Below are positions 3,942 to 55,941 of a DNA stretch of 64,000 bases, piece after piece. Position numbers and translations under genes: made by a program. The notes under the pieces were generated by a model, which had not been told where the DNA came from, ran no database searches, and was given only the letters and a program-made list of their open reading frames with translations. Source of the DNA: Alphaproteobacteria bacterium (GTDB lineage Bacteria; Pseudomonadota; Alphaproteobacteria; UBA9219; RFNS01); assembly GCA_037200005.1 (NCBI GenBank), contig JBBCGY010000001.1, positions 1,015,812 through 1,079,811 on the forward strand, written 5' to 3'. The first letter of the stretch is position 1. Each line of letters starts with the position of its first letter.

Positions 3942-4063
3942 AGCCGTCATTCCCGGCGGCTTTGATCGCCCATGGCGAGTAAAGTCGAACGAGAATCCTG
4001 TTTTCTTCAATAGCAACAAACGGGATTCCCGCTCGCCGCTGCGCGGCGTCGGGAATGACGGCT
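3942..4063. repeat. GTCATTCCCG palindromic repeat, copy 1
   Basis: Bounded by AGCCGTCATTCCC and its reverse complement GGGAATGACGGCT, with an inner CGGGATTCCCGCTCG block. It fills the gap between the convergent 3' ends of miaA and atpC, starting one base after the miaA stop. Related copies are at 10041, 15503, 18303, 35455 and 41028. The folded form could act as a bidirectional transcription stop or protect RNA 3' ends, as REP elements do. Confidence 0.85.
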
Positions 4064-9998: not shown

Positions 9999-10040
9999 GA
10001 CAGACCGGATAAGTTGAAAAACATACGCACACAACAAGCA

Positions 10041-10186
10041 CCGTCATTCCCGGCAAAATCCGAGTGCTTAGGCACTCGGATTTTGAACGGGAATCCCGTT
10101 TATTTTCTAGTGATAGAGAAACAGGATTTCTGACAAAAAACAACGGGATTCCCGCTCGCTGCTCCGCAGCGTCGGGAATGACGGCT
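10041..10186. repeat. GTCATTCCCG palindromic repeat, copy 2
   Basis: Flanked by CCGTCATTCCCGGC and GTCGGGAATGACGGCT. The inner part holds its own hairpin, ATCCGAGTGC/GCACTCGGAT, and two CGGGATTCCCG-type blocks. Longest copy in the window; it lies between livH and the gene at 10192, both on the minus strand, so it would sit in the leader of livH. Confidence 0.85.
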
Positions 10187-15502: not shown

Positions 15503-15643
15503 AGTCGTCATTCCCGACGCCTTGTCACTCGCCCATGCGAGTGGCGGGGCGAGCGGGAATCCCGTTTGGTTTGCCAAAGAAAACGGGATTCCCGTTCGAC
15601 TTTGCCCGCTTCAAAGCGGTCAAAGCCGCCGGGAATGACGGCT
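15503..15643. repeat. GTCATTCCCG palindromic repeat, copy 3
   Basis: Starts AGTCGTCATTCCC and ends GGGAATGACGGCT, with GAGCGGGAATCCCGTTTGG and AAACGGGATTCCCG inside, forming nested hairpins. Located between the two tRNA genes. Confidence 0.85.
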
Positions 15644-18285: not shown

Positions 18286-18302
18286 ACGGCTCCGCACAAA
18301 AA

Positions 18303-18428
18303 ACCGTCATTCCCGACACCGCGCAGCGGTGAGCGGGAATCCCGTTTGTTATCGTTAATAAAAAAACGGGATTCCCGCTCGCGCCCATCACTCATAAATG
18401 AGTGACGGGCTTGGCGGGAATGACGGCT
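18303..18428. repeat. GTCATTCCCG palindromic repeat, copy 4
   Basis: Opens ACCGTCATTCCCGAC and closes GGCGGGAATGACGGCT; between them AGCGGGAATCCCGTTTG and AAACGGGATTCCCGCTC face each other. An additional small palindrome ACTCATAAATGAGT lies near 18390. Between gabD and the Nudix gene. Confidence 0.85.
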
Positions 18429-41027: not shown

Positions 41028-41144
41028 AGCCGTCATTCCCGGCGGCTTTGACCGCCCCAGGCGGACAAAGCCGAACGGGAATCCCGTTTTTTCAACAAAC
41101 CAAACGGGATTCCCGCTCGCCCCTGCGGGGCGTCGGGAATGACG
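41028..41144. repeat. GTCATTCCCG palindromic repeat, copy 5
   Basis: From AGCCGTCATTCCCGGCGG to GTCGGGAATGACG, with CGGGAATCCCGTTT and AAACGGGATTCCCGCTCG in the middle. Very close in sequence to copy 1. Between tatB and the end of ettA. Confidence 0.85.
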
Positions 41145-41181
41145 CGAGTTGCTTGGGCGGGTCCATTCCATCGGCTTTGCG

Positions 41182-45991: not shown

Positions 45992-47215
45992 ATGAACCGG
46001 ATCAGCATCGGCGAAAAAATCTATTCCCTTGAATGGCTGCGCGATCAGGCATCGGCGGGGCAGAACGTGCTGCGCCGCGCGCATCAGGGCCGGATCAAGC
46101 CGCTGTGCCTGTGCGGGAATAAGCAAGTTGCCAAAGAACTCTATGTCGCCAAGCGTAATTTTTATTACCTGGCGAGGATGCCGGGAACAGGCAAGCTGCA
46201 TGCGCCGTGGTGCGATTTTTACGGCGACGCCGATGGCGGGCCTGGATCCAAATCGCAACCGGCGATTATCGAGAAAGAGGACGGCAGGCTTGACGTCAAT
46301 CTGTGGAGTCCGCTGACGCGGCCCGCGAAGACAACCGCACCGTCTTCAGAAACAAAATCACGACAGATAGAAAGGCCGGGCGTCTCCAGAGCTTCGATTA
46401 CGCTGCTCGGACTGCTGTATAAGCTGTGGCAGGACGGCAATCTGCATGTGTGGTATCCCGTGCGCAAATACGCGCGCACGATCAACACGATCCATAAATC
46501 GCTGAACGAGATCGCGGCTTACATGGATATAGGCGATGACGGCCTTCAAGACCGGTTCATAGTCACCAAATACCAGGATAGCTGGCCCGCCAGCGAAGCG
46601 AAAACCCGTGAAGCCATCGACGCGATCACTAAAGGCAAAGACAGCGCCGCGATCCTGATCGGCGAGCTTGAGGACTGGCGACCATCGCAAAAGGAACAAG
46701 GCGGCGCGGGCCTTAAAATCCGTTATCTGAAAGACTGCGTATGGATGGGCAAGGAACTGGCGGAGAGGATCGAAACGAGCTTCCAAAGAGAGAAAGCCTG
46801 CATCGACGACAAGAACCAGAAGATCATGGTCATATGCACGGTATTCCAAAACGGCGTCACCCTGAACGCCGATGACGCGGCACTGATGCGCACCAGCAAG
46901 GAATATATTCCGGTGGAGTCTTCCTATGAACTAGAGGTCACGCGCCGGCTTATCGAACAGGAGCGCAAGTTCAAGAAGCCGGTGCGCATGGATGAAAACG
47001 ATCAGAGGCCGGACTTTATTCTCCTGGATACCGATCCCAACTGGTTCATGGAAGTCTTCGGCATCGACAATGACGAAGCCTACACAGCCAGGAAACACGA
47101 AAAGCTCGCCGCCTATCAACAACAAGGCATCCCATGCTGGTCATGGGAAGCGACATCGAGCAAAACCATCCCGGCATTCCCGGCCCCCTCCCCCGAAACG
47201 CTCGACGAAGAATAA
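45992..47215 (+). CDS. DUF1173 family protein
   Basis: 407 residues. PLCLCGNKQVAKELYVAKRN followed by YLARMPGTGKLHAPWCDFYG is the N-terminal pattern of DUF1173, with Cys residues suited to a zinc site. DUF1173 proteins are usually carried by integrative and plasmid elements; the function is unknown. A C-terminal region with RRLIEQERKF and PDFILLDTDPNWFMEVFGID resembles a nuclease core with acidic residues, which is an inference. First gene of the accessory island. Confidence 0.8.
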   Translation: MNRISIGEKIYSLEWLRDQASAGQNVLRRAHQGRIKPLCLCGNKQVAKELYVAKRNFYYLARMPGTGKLHAPWCDFYGDADGGPGSKSQPAIIEKEDGRLDVNLWSPLTRPAKTTAPSSETKSRQIERPGVSRASITLLGLLYKLWQDGNLHVWYPVRKYARTINTIHKSLNEIAAYMDIGDDGLQDRFIVTKYQDSWPASEAKTREAIDAITKGKDSAAILIGELEDWRPSQKEQGGAGLKIRYLKDCVWMGKELAERIETSFQREKACIDDKNQKIMVICTVFQNGVTLNADDAALMRTSKEYIPVESSYELEVTRRLIEQERKFKKPVRMDENDQRPDFILLDTDPNWFMEVFGIDNDEAYTARKHEKLAAYQQQGIPCWSWEATSSKTIPAFPAPSPETLDEE

Positions 47216-47234
47216 AAGCGCGATGCTCCGCGCC

Positions 47235-47423
47235 GGGACAGGGCTGGGACCGGCGCCCCCGTCAGGCTGTCCTGCCGCTAGGTTCAGCGAATGCTGAACC
47301 TAGCTCGATCGCGCCCTTGACCGCCCGTGGGGCGGGCAAGGGTACGCCTATATCTCCGTCGGGTTCGACGGAGATATAGGCCGCAGGCCATCCTGACGGG
47401 GGCGCCGGTCCCAGCCCTGTCCC
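47235..47423. repeat. Cloverleaf-like nested palindromes, 189 bp
   Basis: A perfect 32-bp inverted repeat (47235-47266 and 47392-47423) encloses three separate hairpins: 11-bp arms at 47278-47288/47293-47303 (loop GAAT), 13-base arms with one mismatch at 47314-47326/47330-47342 (loop GTG), and 14-bp arms at 47347-47360/47367-47380 (loop GGGTTC). It lies 20 bases after the DUF1173 stop. As RNA or cruciform DNA this makes a multi-arm junction. No gene inside. Confidence 0.92.
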
Positions 47424-47509
47424 TCTGCGGCGTTGTGCCGGTCTGGCAAGTCAAGCGGCGAGATGGCAAAGCGCGTGACAGAATGGCGAGATGTTTGCCG
47501 AATTGCGCG

Positions 47510-47573
47510 TTGACGCCGGAGCGCAGCCATGCGCGGCGAGCGCCGCCGATGGGCGGGAGCCTCCCGGCGTCAA
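47510..47573. repeat. Second stem-loop before the Rhs gene
   Basis: TTGACGCCGG (47510-47519) pairs with CCGGCGTCAA (47564-47573), with an inner GCGGCG/CGCCGC helix. Together with the cloverleaf it makes most of the 530-base gap before the Rhs gene structured. No other feature seen in that gap apart from the Rhs ribosome site GAGGAGA at about 47737. Confidence 0.7.
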
Positions 47574-47748
47574 AGATAATCCGCGCGGAATGAGCCCGAC
47601 GCGGCGGATTTATCCTACCCATTTCTACATAAGCTTACTTTTTTCAATGGCCGGACGGCCGTATCGGGCGGATTTGGATTTGCCGCGCCGCGTCCATGAT
47701 AGAGCGGCCCTCCCCCGGAGCATTTCGCGCCGGGTTGAGGAGATAAGC

Positions 47749-50700
47749 ATGAAAAAGATAACGACGAGAAATTGGGTAGGAAGGGCGTTGGCCTTGCTGC
47801 TGATGGCGTGCATGGCAGTCATCGCGGTGCTGAGCGCCTGCACGGGCGGCGGCAATCGCGCTGCGCTGCCGAAGGAGAGTGTTGGCACGACGACGCAGGC
47901 CATCACGGGCATGACTGGGCTTGCGCCGCTGACGGCTGGCGTTGATTACTACGAATACGGCAATCTGTGTGTTTCGACATCCGAGGCGGCGGTGGCGCAA
48001 TGCGAGTTTCAGTCGATCTGCGTTCCCACCTATCTGCCTTCGTCATTGTTCATGCCGCCTCCCTCCGGCCCTTGCACGGGTAGAACAGGCTATGCCGACC
48101 AGAATTGCAGCAGCTGCATCAATGTTGCGTTCATGCATAACTATGCAGGAACGACCTGCCCTAGCGGGTTTATGGCTAGCGGCGTGTGCAAGGATCCGCC
48201 GGATGGCCAAGAAATCATCGACACGAAGGTGGAGGATGAGAAGATTCATGATTGCGGCGGAAACGACGAGCCACTAAGTCCGGGGCAGTCATTGATGAGC
48301 GGGGAGCAGCTTGCCGGTGTCGGCATGTGCGTGCCGAATGCGCATAAGATGCTGGCGAGTCTGAATCTGGTGGATACGCCGGTCGGCTACACGCCGGCGA
48401 AGGGGCCGGATATGCATATCCGGCTGACTTATAATCAGAGAGAGCCGGTTCCGGCGACCGCGCCGAACTACGGCAATGTCGGCCCGAAATGGAATATCAA
48501 CTTGACGTCCTATGTGCAGGACGACCCCTCGGTGGCGGGCAGCAAAGTGACGCGTTACGCGCGAGGCGGCGGCAGCGTGCTGCATAATGGCTACCCCGAT
48601 TATGATAGCGGCACGGGGAACTGGATTCCGGAGAAGCAATCCGGCGCGGTGCTGAAGCGGTTTCCCGCGACAGGAACGCCGGTCACGTCCTACACGCTGA
48701 CTGAGGTCAATGGCACGGTGCAGACCTTCAGCAAATTCGACGGCGCGAGCACGTATCCGCGCCGTGTGTTCCTGACCAGCATCACCGACCCGCAGGGCAA
48801 TGCGGTGACGTTCACTTACGACAGCACCTATCTGCGGGTGAACAGCATCACCGACGCGACGGGACGGACGACGACGCTCGGCTACACGGTGTCGGGGAAA
48901 CCTCTGCTCGTCTCGAGCATCACCGATCCGTTCAGCCGCTCGGCGACGCTGAGCTATGACGGCAGTTATCGCCTCGCGTCGATTACCGACGTGCTGGGGA
49001 TTACGTCGTCGTTCACTTACGACACGACGGATACGAGCTTCATCACGACGCTGACGACGCCCTACGGCAATAGCACCTTCGATTACGGAGGCGACTATAC
49101 TGCGGGAACGCGCTGGCTCGAACTGACCGACCCGGAGGGCAAGACCGAGCGCGTGGAGTATCGCGCGAGCACGGCAGGCATGTCGAACAGCGACGGTAGC
49201 GTGCCGAGCGGCATGACGATTGTGAATTCCGACTTGTCGAAGCGAAACACGTTCTATTGGAATAAACACGTCTTTGGCCTCTACGGCACGGACGACAGCA
49301 AGGCGGAGGTGACGCACTGGCTGGACGCGGGAGGCAACGCGCCCTCGCCGATGGTGCAGGCGCTCAAGCCCGCGCTGGAAAACCGCATCTGGTATAACTA
49401 TCCAAGCCAGAGCGCGGGCGACAAGGAAGGCACGCTCGCCGCGCCTACGGCGATGGGGCGATTGCTCGCGAGCAGCGTGACGCAACTATCGACGGCGACG
49501 TACAACAGTCTCGGCAAGGTGCTGACGGCGACCGACCCGCTGGGGCGGACGTTGAAATACACCTACGCCGGGAACAATATCGACCTGACGACGGTGGAGC
49601 GGAAAATCTCGTCGACGCCGACTTACGCGACGCTGGCGAGCTTCGGCACTTACACCAACCACCTGCCCGCGAGCTATACCGACGCATCGGGCCGGGTGAC
49701 GAACTACGCCTATAACGGCGCGGGGCAGCTTATCTACGCGACGAACGCGCTGAACCAAACCACGTTCAACGAGTACGACGCCTACGGAAGGCTGACGCGG
49801 GTGACGGTGCCCTATGCCGTGGCGTTCGGCAGCGTGACCTACGGCACGACGAACGCGCTGGCCGCGACGAAAGAGAGCTACAGCTATGACGGCTATGACC
49901 GCGTGGGCACGCTGACGGATTCGGAGGGCCGGGCCGAGACGTACGGCTACAACGCGCTGGATATGCTGACGCTGGTGACGTATCCGGACAGCACGACGGA
50001 CACTTACACCTATGACGGCACGAAGAAACTGAATCTGAACAGCCGCACCGACCGGCTCGGACGGACGACGAGCTACACTTACGACGACAACCGGCGGCTG
50101 CTCTCGCTCACCGAGCCGATTACCAGCGCGCCGCTCACCCGAACGACGAGCTACACCTATTACGACAATGGCGCGCTGCATACGCAGACGGACGCGAACA
50201 GCAACGTCACGACCTGGAGCATCGATATCGAAGGGCGCGTGACGGCGAAGAGCTTGGCGGACTCAAGCGCCGAGAGCTACGCCTATGAATCCGAAACCAG
50301 CCGCCTGCGCACGGTGACGGACGCGCTGGCGCAAGTGAAGACCTATACATACGATGTCGCCGACGAACTGACCGGCATCGGCTACACGAACGAGGTGAAC
50401 AGCACGCCGGACGTGACGTTCGCCTATGACACATGGTATCCGCGCCGCACGAGCATGGTGGACGGCATCGGCACGACGGCCTGGAGCTACATTGCGCCGG
50501 GCACGGACGGGGCATTGCAACTGCAGACGGAGAACGGGCCGTTCGCGTCGAACGACTCCATCACCTACGCCTACGATGCGCTGGGGCGTGAATCCTCCCG
50601 AACAGTATCCGGCGGGAATGAGAGCCTGACCTACGACACGCTGGGGCGGGTTGCGACGCATGTGAACAGCCTGGGCACATTCACCTACGGCTACAACGGC

Positions 50701-52002
50701 AGCACGAGCCAGGTGACGACGCGAACGCTGAACGGCACCAGCATCGGGACGACCTGGGCCTACGACACGAACAGCAACGACCGCCGCCTGACCAGCATCA
50801 CGAACGCGAACGGCCTCAGCGGCACCAGCAAGCCGAGGAACTACGCCTACACCTGGAGCGGCGGCAATCCGTACAACGTGACGAGCGTGGCGGAGAGCAA
50901 CGGCCCGTGGACGGGACAGACATGGAGCTACACATACGACCTGTCCGACAGGCTGACGGCGGCAACGACCGGCAGCCCGACGAGCTGGAACTTCGCCTAT
51001 ACGCGGGACAAGCTGGACAACATCACCACGCTAACCCGAAGCGCGGGCAGCGCTGGCGGCGGGTGGACGAGAAGCGCGAACAACGTCAATCAACTCACCG
51101 GAGCCGGGGTCCCAACCTACGACGCGGCGGGAGAGGTGACGGACGATTACAAGATGTACCGCCAGAGCTGGGACGCGGAACATCGAATGATAAAGGCGGA
51201 GTACAAGACCAGCTGGGGCGCTGGCACCTACACGAGCCAGAAGACGGAGTTCAAATACGATGGTCTCGGAAGGCGCACGGTTGAAACTGAATACGACAAC
51301 ACGGGAGCGTTCGCCTATGAATGGCACTTCGCATGGTGCCAAGACGAAATCTGCCAAGTGCGCTGGTCGTGGGGCGAGACAGTGGCGAGACGCTACTTCC
51401 CGGAAGGGCAATACGCGCTCGACACCGGCAAGAAGCATGTGCACATGCCGGACATGCTCGGTTCGGTGCGCGACATCGTGAATGTGAGCACGAGCGCGGT
51501 GGACTTCAGCATCGACTACGGCCCCGGAGGCGAGAGCATCCGCACGAACGGCAGCGTGTACCCGGACCACAGACTTGCCGGGATGTTCCAGGCCGGGCCG
51601 TACTTCAACTACCAAACGCGCTATCGCATCCTCGACCCGTTCTATCTGACGTGGCAGAGCCGCGACCCGATTGGTGAGAACGGAGGTATCAATCTGTTTG
51701 CGTACACGGGTGGAAGGCCGACGATGAAGACGGATAGGTTGGGGCTTAGTGATGACCCAGTAAAAGATATAGCAATGTGCCAAGCATTAGGAGGGGGATG
51801 GTGTAAGCCTACCGAGCCCCCATCAAAGGAAGAGTTCGATTGTGCGTTCCATTGTGCCATTCAAACAGCTCCTCTTTGCGCTTATGCTATGATGTTTGGC
51901 CCTTGTGGTCGCGCCCTAGGCTTGGTATGTCAGGGAGGAAGAGCGCTCTATTGCTCTGAGGTTGTTTGTGCCGATAAGTCTTCTGATAAGGGTAAAGAGT
52001 AG
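47749..52002 (+). CDS. Rhs/YD-repeat lipoprotein, polymorphic toxin
   Basis: 1417 residues from the ATG at 47749 (GAGGAGATAAGC upstream). A lipoprotein signal ends VLSAC, so the protein is exported and lipid-anchored. A Cys-rich segment (about 60-150) is followed by many YD repeats (YDALGRESSR, YDTLGRVATH) that form the Rhs shell. The core ends RDPIGENGG ... TDRLGLS near residue 1333, where the usual cleavage motif is DPxGL; here it reads DRLGL. The last 85 residues are a Cys-rich tip of lower GC. No VgrG, PAAR or Eag gene is nearby. Confidence 0.9.
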   Translation: MKKITTRNWVGRALALLLMACMAVIAVLSACTGGGNRAALPKESVGTTTQAITGMTGLAPLTAGVDYYEYGNLCVSTSEAAVAQCEFQSICVPTYLPSSLFMPPPSGPCTGRTGYADQNCSSCINVAFMHNYAGTTCPSGFMASGVCKDPPDGQEIIDTKVEDEKIHDCGGNDEPLSPGQSLMSGEQLAGVGMCVPNAHKMLASLNLVDTPVGYTPAKGPDMHIRLTYNQREPVPATAPNYGNVGPKWNINLTSYVQDDPSVAGSKVTRYARGGGSVLHNGYPDYDSGTGNWIPEKQSGAVLKRFPATGTPVTSYTLTEVNGTVQTFSKFDGASTYPRRVFLTSITDPQGNAVTFTYDSTYLRVNSITDATGRTTTLGYTVSGKPLLVSSITDPFSRSATLSYDGSYRLASITDVLGITSSFTYDTTDTSFITTLTTPYGNSTFDYGGDYTAGTRWLELTDPEGKTERVEYRASTAGMSNSDGSVPSGMTIVNSDLSKRNTFYWNKHVFGLYGTDDSKAEVTHWLDAGGNAPSPMVQALKPALENRIWYNYPSQSAGDKEGTLAAPTAMGRLLASSVTQLSTATYNSLGKVLTATDPLGRTLKYTYAGNNIDLTTVERKISSTPTYATLASFGTYTNHLPASYTDASGRVTNYAYNGAGQLIYATNALNQTTFNEYDAYGRLTRVTVPYAVAFGSVTYGTTNALAATKESYSYDGYDRVGTLTDSEGRAETYGYNALDMLTLVTYPDSTTDTYTYDGTKKLNLNSRTDRLGRTTSYTYDDNRRLLSLTEPITSAPLTRTTSYTYYDNGALHTQTDANSNVTTWSIDIEGRVTAKSLADSSAESYAYESETSRLRTVTDALAQVKTYTYDVADELTGIGYTNEVNSTPDVTFAYDTWYPRRTSMVDGIGTTAWSYIAPGTDGALQLQTENGPFASNDSITYAYDALGRESSRTVSGGNESLTYDTLGRVATHVNSLGTFTYGYNGSTSQVTTRTLNGTSIGTTWAYDTNSNDRRLTSITNANGLSGTSKPRNYAYTWSGGNPYNVTSVAESNGPWTGQTWSYTYDLSDRLTAATTGSPTSWNFAYTRDKLDNITTLTRSAGSAGGGWTRSANNVNQLTGAGVPTYDAAGEVTDDYKMYRQSWDAEHRMIKAEYKTSWGAGTYTSQKTEFKYDGLGRRTVETEYDNTGAFAYEWHFAWCQDEICQVRWSWGETVARRYFPEGQYALDTGKKHVHMPDMLGSVRDIVNVSTSAVDFSIDYGPGGESIRTNGSVYPDHRLAGMFQAGPYFNYQTRYRILDPFYLTWQSRDPIGENGGINLFAYTGGRPTMKTDRLGLSDDPVKDIAMCQALGGGWCKPTEPPSKEEFDCAFHCAIQTAPLCAYAMMFGPCGRALGLVCQGGRALYCSEVVCADKSSDKGKE
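51013..51747 (+). repeat. Rhs core-end repeat, expressed copy (735 bp)
   Basis: From the codon of LDNITTLTRSAG to the GLG/L end of the core motif. It matches 52364-53098 over the same 735 bases without gaps, in the same coding phase. Many third-position differences, about 11 amino acid changes. Confidence 0.92.
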
Positions 52003-52300: not shown

Positions 52301-52344
52301 AGGCCCGGCCCCCGCCCCAGGGAGCCGGGCCTTTTGCTTTTCTG
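52301..52344 (+). terminator. Intrinsic terminator after the first immunity gene
   Basis: GGCCCGGC / GCCGGGCC stem with TTTTGCTTTT after it. 43 of 44 bases are identical to 53729-53772. Confidence 0.85.
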
Positions 52345-52363: not shown

Positions 52364-53098
52364 CTGGACAACATCACCACACTCACCCGAAGCGCGGGCA
52401 GCGCTGGCGGCGGGTGGACGAGAAGCGCGAACAACGTGAACCAGCTGACGGGCAGCGGCGTGCCGACGTACGACGCGGCGGGAGAGGTGACGGACGATTA
52501 CAAGATGTACCGCCAAAGTTGGGACGCCGAGCACCGCATGATAAAGGCCGAATATAAAACCTCGTGGGGCGCAGGCACCTACACGAGCCAGAAGACGGAG
52601 TTTCAATATGACGGCCTCGGACGCCGCACGGTTGAAACTGAATACGACAACACGGGAGCGTTCGCCTATGAATGGCACTTCGCGTGGTGCCAAGACGAAA
52701 TCTGCCAAGTGCGCTGGTCGTGGGGCGAGACGGTGGCGCGGCGCTACTTCCCGGAAGGGCAATACGCGCTCGACACCGGCAAGAAGCATGTGCATATGCC
52801 TGACATGCTGGGCAGCGTGCGCGACATCGTGAACGTATCAACGAGCGCGGTGGACTTCAGCATCGACTATGGCCCCGGAGGCGAAGCCATCCGCACGAAC
52901 GGCAGCGTGTATCCGGACCACAGACTTGCCGGGATGTTCCAGGCCGGGCCGTACTTCAACTACCAAACGCGCCACCGCATCCTCGACCCGTTCTATCTGA
53001 CGTGGCAGAGCCGAGACCCCATCGGCGAGAACGGTGGAACGAACCTCTACGCATATGTCGGAGGAAAGCCGACGATGAATGTCGACCCGTTGGGGCTT
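52364..53098 (+). repeat. Rhs core-end repeat, silent copy (735 bp)
   Basis: Same length and phase as 51013-51747. Differences are mostly at third codon positions; amino acid changes include Tyr to His (YQTRYRIL/YQTRHRIL) and Arg to Pro restoring DPLGL. Confidence 0.92.
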
Positions 53099-53728: not shown

Positions 53729-53772
53729 AGGCCCGGCCCCCGCCCCAGGGAGCCGGGTCTTTTGCTTTTCTG
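53729..53772 (+). terminator. Intrinsic terminator after the second immunity gene
   Basis: Same hairpin and T-run as 52301-52344, with a single C to T change in the descending arm (GCCGGGTC). Confidence 0.85.
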
Positions 53773-54112: not shown

Positions 54113-54238
54113 TTCATTCTGAATCCCCGCCTCGCCATTCCGATAATTCCATAGCTTTTCAATCAGTTGCCGCCGTTGTCTCAAGCTCCATTTTCGAATT
54201 CGATTTATCTCGCATCGTCATTTCTGAGGAGACATTGC

Positions 54239-55419
54239 ATGATCGGCCAGGGCAGGACTTACGCGAGCGGCGCCGGTCGCGCCAAATATCTGTTCCGGCC
54301 CAAAAACGGCGAAACGGTCGAGGTCTATCAGGTTCGCGGTTCGGCACGGACGACCCGGCCGAGGCGCTCAAGAGCATCGACTGGCAGGCGATGCGGCTCG
54401 CCACCCGCAGCACGGAACCGATTTACGGGGCGCATCTGCGCTGCCCGCCGCATGAGGATTTGCCGGATAAGGATTGGGAGTATGCCGCCGACTGGATCGA
54501 AGCAAAACAGAACCTTTCCGGTCATGCGCGGATAATCGTGTTTCACACATCCCCGGACGGCTGGAAGCACATGCATGTGGTCTGGAACCGCATCGACCCG
54601 GACACGCGGCTGGTGAAGAAGGAAGGCTACAGCCACAAGAAGCTGAAAGAGGCGGTGCGGGAAATCGAGATTTTCCTGGGGCTTTCGCCCGCGCCGCGCC
54701 GCAAAAAGGAAGAGGCGAAACCTCACGTCGACGCGGGCTTCATTCGGCAGGTGCGGCGGTTTGGAATGGAGCTTGAGGAGTTTCGAGCGCATATCGGCGA
54801 CATATGGAAACGCTCGGACAGCGGCAAAGCATTCGCCGTGGGACTGGCGGAGAGCGGCCTTCTGCTGGCGCGTGGCGACAAGCAGGATTTTGTGGCGGTC
54901 GACAGGCACGGCGGAGTTTATAGCCTGCCCCGGCTGATGGGGATGAGGCCGGACATACTGCGACGACGGTTCGCGGACATCGACAATGCGCGACTTGGCA
55001 ACGTCGCGGAAGCGGAGGCGATGTTCGCGCGGCTGGGCGCGGCGGCTCCGGCGCAAGAACCGGCGAAGCCAGCCATCATTCTTCCTGCTGCGGTGGCGGA
55101 AATAACGGCTCCGCAGTCCAAAGCGCCAGCACTCATCCCCGCGCCCGCGTCGAAACTCGACATCCGCGCCGAATGGAAACGGGAGGCGGCGGCGCTGCTC
55201 AAGAATACGCGCTCGGCTATCCGCGACGCCTGGCGCAAAACCAGAACCATCCTGGGCTTCGTCAGAAAGCTGTCGGCGCAAGATATGAAACTGGAGCACG
55301 GCATCCGCGACTCTTACGCTGTCATCGACGCGCAAGGCGTCAAACACCCGCTGCCGCGCCTGCTGCGTGAGAAAGCGGCGGACGTGCGCAAGAAGCTTGG
55401 GAGTCTGGACTCCGGATAG
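54239..55419 (+). pseudogene. Conjugative relaxase, interrupted by a frameshift
   Basis: The first 34 codons (GQGRTYASGAGRAKYL ... VEVYQVRG) are in one frame. From about 54341 the protein continues in another: FGTDDPAEALKSIDW, then HARIIVFHTSPDGWKHMHVVWNRID (quoted partly), the His-x-His-x3-Asn motif that binds the catalytic metal. Restoring one T in GGTTCGGC gives a smooth join VRG-FGTDD. The full protein is about 390 residues with a helical C-terminal region. Whether this is a real mutation or a sequencing error is open; programmed slippage seems unlikely as no X-XXY-YYZ heptamer lies at the join. Confidence 0.82.
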
Positions 55420-55473
55420 GCGGCGGGAATGTTTTGACCGCTGTTATGCAAACGCAAATTTTATGAGGACGAT

Positions 55474-55791
55474 ATGATGATGGATACAAACCACCTGCCC
55501 GCTCTTCCGGCGTTCAAGGCCGCCGTCGAAGAATTGCGCGAGTTCGGCATCGTGCTGACGATGTCGCCAGGAGAATATAAGGTGAATTATCGCGGCGGAA
55601 CGCCCGCAACAGCCTATCGCTCCGACGATCTGGCCGACGCCGTGGAGCATGCCCGCGCCATGGCATCGCTTCGGCCGGCCTCGTCGGAGCCGCCGCTCGG
55701 CCCGATGTCCCGTGCCAGTTCCCATCGCAGCAAAATGTACAAGCACAATGCCAAGGTCGCCGCGCGGCGGCGGAAGGCGCGGGGTGGATAG
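55474..55791 (+). CDS. Unknown small protein following the relaxase
   Basis: 105 residues. N-terminal half mixed alpha/beta (FGIVLTMSPGEYKVNYRGGT; YRSDDLADAVEHARAM), C-terminal half strongly basic (HRSKMYKHNAKVAARRRKAR), suggesting nucleic acid binding. GAGGAC upstream of the ATG. Typical of small genes on mobile elements but no family named. Confidence 0.62.
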   Translation: MMMDTNHLPALPAFKAAVEELREFGIVLTMSPGEYKVNYRGGTPATAYRSDDLADAVEHARAMASLRPASSEPPLGPMSRASSHRSKMYKHNAKVAARRRKARGG

Positions 55792-55835
55792 CCAAAGTTT
55801 TTTTGTCGGGAGTTCAAATCCCACGGATGATACGA

Positions 55836-55869
55836 CCACACATAAGGGGCTAAAGCCCCTTATGTGTGG
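55836..55869. repeat. 16-bp perfect palindrome abutting tRNA-Met
   Basis: CCACACATAAGGGGCT and AGCCCCTTATGTGTGG are exact inverted copies separated by AA. It includes the CCA end of tRNA-Met. It may be its terminator (no long T-run follows). On its other side a T-arm-like GGGAGTTCAAATCCC and a CCA lie in the opposite direction. Confidence 0.75.
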
Positions 55870-55941
55870 TAGCAGCGGAGGGATTTGAACCCCCGACCAA
55901 GGGATTATGATTCCCCTGCTCTACCACTGAGCTACGCTGCC
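55867..55941 (-). tRNA. tRNA-Met(CAT), elongator type
   Basis: 75 nt with encoded CCA. Acceptor GGCAGCG pairs with CGCTGCT (first pair G-T). D-arm AGCTCAGTGGTAGAGC; anticodon stem GGGGA/TCCCT around ATCATAA; T-loop TTCAAAT. Not the initiator, which has a C at position 1. Modification to read Ile (lysidine) cannot be excluded. Confidence 0.9.

Follow-up and report, generated by a model that had tools for sequence, protein, structure and literature searches.

A cloverleaf between a DUF1173 gene and an Rhs gene

The window (the whole 64-kb stretch of DNA that was analyzed) carries, on the plus strand, a DUF1173 gene (45992-47215; Pfam DUF1173, E 4e-45) and, directly downstream of it, a four-armed cloverleaf of 189 nt (47235-47423). 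These are followed by a non-coding leader that extends from the cloverleaf to the Rhs start (47424-47748) and by a gene for an Rhs-repeat protein whose signal peptide is lipoprotein-like (47749-52002; Pfam RHS_repeat, E 3e-39). Further to the right, on the same strand, are a gene for a MobA/VirD2-like relaxase (54235-55419), which has an apparently garbled N-terminus and is probably decayed, and a small gene with no Pfam match (55474-55791). The cloverleaf, at the border of the two genes where the earlier note had placed it, is separated by 19 nt from the DUF1173 stop codon and by 325 nt from the likely Rhs start codon (47749). The end of the Rhs core is duplicated (51013-51747 and 52364-53098, 89% identical) and is accompanied by a second tip, an arrangement that resembles Rhs tip replacement. 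Two terminator-like stretches in the Rhs region (52301-52344 and 53729-53772) are near-identical.

The outer stem consists of 32 perfect Watson-Crick pairs between a left arm (47235-47266) and a right arm (47392-47423), and an extra imperfect helix of 2+5 bp links it with the junction. Inside lie three hairpins: hairpin a, with 12 perfect bp (47277-47288 with 47293-47304; span 47277-47304), hairpin b, with 6+6 bp flanking a single A/G mismatch (47314-47326 with 47330-47342; span 47314-47342), and hairpin c, with 16 perfect bp (47346-47361 with 47366-47381; span 47346-47381). On rechecking, the coordinates and the perfect 32-bp stem reported earlier proved exact and the number of hairpins was correct, while the arm lengths of 11, 13, and 14 bases had to be revised to those given here. 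The junction linker TCGATCGCG (47305-47313) follows hairpin a. A DNA fold of the 229-nt stretch from 47215 to 47443 has an energy of -114 kcal/mol versus -52.6 ± 3.9 kcal/mol for dinucleotide shuffles (z -15.9), and no second perfect inverted repeat of at least 18 bp within 300 bp was found across the 64-kb window. With Rfam at the gathering score, three tRNAs were the only matches in the whole window, and the cloverleaf was unmatched.

A second copy with compensated divergence

Using blastn, we found a second full-length match in the same genome (G000:C1:1161838-1162049, 67% identity). It contains a second cloverleaf (C1:1161855-1162041), 99 kb distant and also preceding an Rhs gene, which has the same fold plan with an outer stem of 36 bp (z -17.5). 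Of the 75 pairs without an alignment gap on either side in either copy, 26 differ between the copies, and all 26 are changed on both sides, with no one-sided change and no broken pair; these statistics come from two sequences of one genome, and the structure was derived from the same two sequences, which favors the paired percentage by construction, though not the double changes. By helix, the changed pairs amount to 12/37 (outer stem, helix 1), 2/11, 7/14 (hairpin b), and 5/14 (hairpin c). The probability of 26 double changes is ~1e-20 if the changed columns of both arms are assumed to be independent, and sliding the partner by 1 to 3 columns as a control left 1 to 4 double changes and a pairing of 35 to 49%. 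One double change includes a G-U pair whose presence depends on the alignment. When each copy was folded alone with RNA parameters, 1 of 158 pairs was G-U (P 3e-5 if G-U is assumed to make up 8%). Between the islands, 341 of 366 aligned positions of the leader (47424-47790) are identical (93%); the stems differ far more.

Since about one-third of the paired positions differ and yet all pairs match, the fold itself is being maintained, either through selection or through some copying mechanism. The earlier note had held that chance cannot produce such a fold and had proposed a search for further copies and a covariance analysis. The former yielded one homologous locus, in which the pairing is retained, and the latter showed 26 of 26 changed pairs to be altered on both sides, which strengthens the original statement. 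The compensated changes also support its suggestion of protein-recognized DNA or structured RNA. As to the choice between the two, the near-absence of G-U pairs makes it unlikely that wobble was tolerated as in RNA, and the evidence leans toward DNA as the active form.

Several letters are common to both copies in the alignment: CCGCGCC-GGGACAGGG and CCCTGTCCC-TCTGCGG at the stem ends and shoulders, TTCAGCGAAWGCTGAA at the tip of the first hairpin, and TCKATCGCG in the linker that follows it. The left shoulder, (T)CCGCGCC (47227-47234), lies outside the stem and is kept in the second copy according to both blastn and the alignment. The tip of hairpin a, which was counted as conserved, reads TTCAGCGAATGCTGAA in the window copy and TTCAGCGAAAGCTGAA in the second copy; GCGAAAGC-type tips are unusually stable DNA mini-hairpins. 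The remaining stem positions drift between the copies. Judged from two aligned sequences, conservation at the ends of the stem, at a single hairpin tip, and in a single junction linker appears contact-like, a pattern as would be expected for a recognized structure.

Two probable mobile islands share an Rhs-relaxase block

A blastn comparison of the window with 51 kb around the second copy revealed one co-linear block common to both regions. It runs from the cloverleaf with its leader (47227-47853) through the Rhs core and the relaxase region into the small gene, as far as 55764 (55189-55764, 70% identity). No blastn similarity between the islands was found left of 47227, where the neighbors are unrelated: the DUF1173 gene in the window, which the second island does not share, and a 130-aa open reading frame (ORF) without a Pfam match in the second island. 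The homology sets in exactly at the cloverleaf and breaks off shortly after the relaxase gene, so that the cloverleaf marks the left end of the shared Rhs-relaxase block. The relaxase homologue of the second island (L044:15569-16951) is preceded by an ORF at the MobC position. There is, in the same region, another relaxase, accompanied by a NikA/MobC-like protein, as well as a serine recombinase and a HamA-like protein that comes with a DEAD helicase. The relaxases, this recombinase, and a tRNA adjoining the window block lead us to infer that both blocks are probably mobile islands. A third Rhs-relaxase remnant, which is truncated, is present at C1:1530-1533 kb (stretch L111), and no cloverleaf was seen there.

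The 3' end of tRNA-Met (55867-55941) recurs beside the gene as an imperfect inverted copy (55802-55836), which may be what is left of an attachment site bounding the island on its right. A palindrome tree with a 19-bp outer stem and two large branched hairpins (G000:C1:1142063-1142331, or L044:4064-4332; z -13.3) lies ~20 kb from the second cloverleaf, to which its sequence is unrelated.

Distribution and comparison with known palindromic elements

Both blastn and a covariance model (R1) gave two copies in the 2.36-Mb genome. The same model found no copy among 38 relatives, nor among up to 384 other sampled genomes of the class, a search in which distant copies could be missed and in which E-values are rough, as they are for short-calibrated covariance models. 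There was no blastn match of the element among plasmids and phages, no match of the Rhs N-terminal protein in genome contigs, and none of the relaxase in viral contigs; the Rhs core, searched in 59 relatives, was found in its own genome only. Searches of genome and viral contigs with hairpin and linker patterns returned 13 + 5 loci, none of which is a full cloverleaf by covariance model (best, 22 bits over 59 nt), and these were taken as chance matches. By these searches, the element would be either rare or evolving too fast for the methods used. The structural scan consisted of sampled stretches totaling ~0.5 Mb (about 0.4 Mb plus two loci), with stretch L097 read as N throughout. A fold with a 46-pair stem that starts with a 21-bp perfect inverted repeat (L099:18190-18353) is possibly a MITE.

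The window also contains dispersed CGTCATTCCCG repeats (3942-4063, 10039-10186, 15503-15643, 18302-18428, and 41028-41147). These CGTC-type repeats number 5 in the window and ~17 genome-wide, and dozens more occur in other genomes of the order. Each plan is that of an outer stem around three hairpins, and the ends are CGTCATTCC(C)G; their side hairpins vary widely and are mostly still paired. They fit the description of head-to-head dimers of CGTC-tagged REPs, which carry the CGTC tag at the unit ends (PMC3733652). The Rhs cloverleaf has the plan of these dimers, with an outer stem and three variable yet paired hairpins, but its ends are GGGACAGGG/CCCTGTCCC without CGTCATTCC, its stem is 32 to 36 bp long, and it is not dispersed. 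Covariance model R2 recovers the five window repeats and misses 47235-47423; with no CGTC tag and only two copies, the cloverleaf was not assigned to this family. As far as tested, the likeness is one of plan, not of descent.

A common transposon end, named in the earlier note as an alternative, finds no backing in the genome, where dispersed copies were not found. A transposon or MITE end was likewise rejected, as both copies lie at the same place relative to Rhs, inside longer homology, and no target-site duplication was seen in the flanks read. Parvovirus-type inverted terminal repeats (ITRs) and hairpin telomeres also consist of a stem closing inner palindromes, a likeness that had been described as one of shape only. 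This description is upheld: unlike those structures, the cloverleaf is internal, occurs once per island, and lies away from any DNA terminus.

Candidate transfer-origin sequences

An oriT-like inverted repeat in the leader (47520-47552) is a weak lead that ranks about seventh in the scan of ~0.5 Mb. The half-repeat GCAGCCATGCGCGG, which both islands carry ~100 nt to the right of the cloverleaf, resembles the repeat of the oriT regions of related relaxases (GCAAGCCATGCGCGG...); it is not exceptional in the genome scan, and several sites elsewhere in the ~0.5 Mb score better. Three plasmids with related MOBP relaxases (32 to 34% identity) share a GCAAGCCATG repeat, and their non-coding DNA from this repeat to mobC was folded. 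It is hairpin-rich in two of them and not clearly so in pTF4.1 (z -1.5). In the Frigidibacter and Sphingopyxis plasmids (L150:1310-1760 and L151:1640-2010; z -4.8 and -6.6), runs of short hairpins with many TTCG loops lie between GCAAGCCATG and mobC. We also considered TATCCTACCC, near 47613, as a putative nic site but dropped it as unsupported; its surroundings were found only in the two copies.

Possible roles of the folded element

Our leading, if tentative, explanation is that the cloverleaf acts in cis as a DNA signal and is recognized in its folded form on an exposed single strand, e.g., as a second-strand origin. One strand of the island would be exposed during conjugative or rolling-circle transfer, or as the lagging-strand template; it would fold into the stem with its three hairpins, and a replication or mobilization protein would recognize the folded strand. 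The simplest role would be the start of second-strand synthesis, i.e., the function of a single-strand origin (sso) or a primosome site, in which case DNA would be the active form and priming its task. Consistent with this are the compensated divergence, the few G-U pairs, the contact-like conserved points, the location where a block with a relaxase gene begins, the hairpin-rich DNA between GCAAGCCATG and mobC in two plasmids with related MOBP relaxases, and the precedent of plasmid pBAA1, whose sso requires three stem-loops and still works with a different primary sequence of the same fold (PMC4595007). Counting against it are the finding of only two copies, both in one genome, the decayed look of the window relaxase, and the fact that no oriT has been established.

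In the sso of rolling-circle plasmids and ICEBs1, which convert single-stranded into double-stranded DNA in a manner that depends on orientation, a non-coding multi-hairpin fold lies on a mobile element, as does the cloverleaf, and structure governs function besides or instead of sequence (PMC4595007). The cloverleaf is likewise a multi-hairpin fold conserved in structure, with all pairs kept across the double changes. The sso described there have three stem-loops, with no mention of a closing stem of 32 to 36 bp, and no sequence match to the cloverleaf was found. Frpo/ssi single-strand promoters of conjugative plasmids are also long folded DNAs upstream of a gene on a mobilizable element, but they differ in having -35/-10 elements in the folded strand (PMC11541004). 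A search for sigma-70-like -35/-10 pairs, which would not recognize unusual promoters, found none within either cloverleaf; an Frpo-type promoter is therefore disfavored, and the result also weighs against a single-strand signal more generally.

The fold could instead act as RNA, either as the 5' portion of an Rhs leader of some length or as a separate small RNA, and control Rhs expression. A location 325 nt ahead of the Rhs gene, common to the two islands, would suit such a role, compensatory pairing is RNA-like behavior, and the leader is 93% identical between the islands while the Rhs N-terminal coding part past the signal peptide drops to ~50 to 60%. We nevertheless regard an RNA role as doubtful given the single G-U pair among 158, the complete lack of one-sided changes, the lack of an Rfam family match, and the absence, in both copies, of a promoter-like site just upstream, although read-through from the upstream gene is possible. 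Perfect pairing could also be kept without any function, which is a further point against a single-strand signal. In template switching (quasi-palindrome correction), one arm serves as the template for the other, and the process is reported to produce multi-base compensatory changes and homogenized inverted-repeat arms (PMC8794818, PMC8604942). It would account for double changes without intermediates, and many further palindromic repeats exist in the genome and order. A functionless palindrome is nonetheless unlikely, as template switching accounts neither for conserved sequence at the stem ends, in the linker, and at the tip of hairpin a amid drift at other stem positions, nor for the retention of three separate hairpins and their junction. 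Dead repeats of similar age would be expected to lose parts.

That the inter-island homology begins within a few bases of the cloverleaf, next to unrelated left neighbor genes, might also indicate a recombination site, where an attC-like or HUH-transposon-end-like fold serves as the join for exchange of the Rhs-relaxase block between islands. This appears quite improbable: no target-site duplication was seen, the other end of the block is without a second copy of the fold, a shared recombinase was not found, the observation consists of a single junction pair, and inspection by eye revealed no attC-type features.

Implications

The Rhs cloverleaf is a clear natural example of a large DNA fold maintained through fully compensated change. 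With contact points already visible at the ends, one tip, and one linker, it is directly testable whether a protein of the host or of the island recognizes the folded DNA. It is conceivable, though we would not count on it, that the two copies represent a DNA element of mobile islands that belongs to a new class, namely a cloverleaf with a long stem that is read by shape, diverges faster than its flank with all pairs kept, and serves strand conversion or strand-specific control of the Rhs cargo gene. If the cloverleaf is a single-strand DNA signal, a structure-first class that sequence searches overlook would join the known ones, and other mobile islands could be screened for such elements with covariance in place of sequence.
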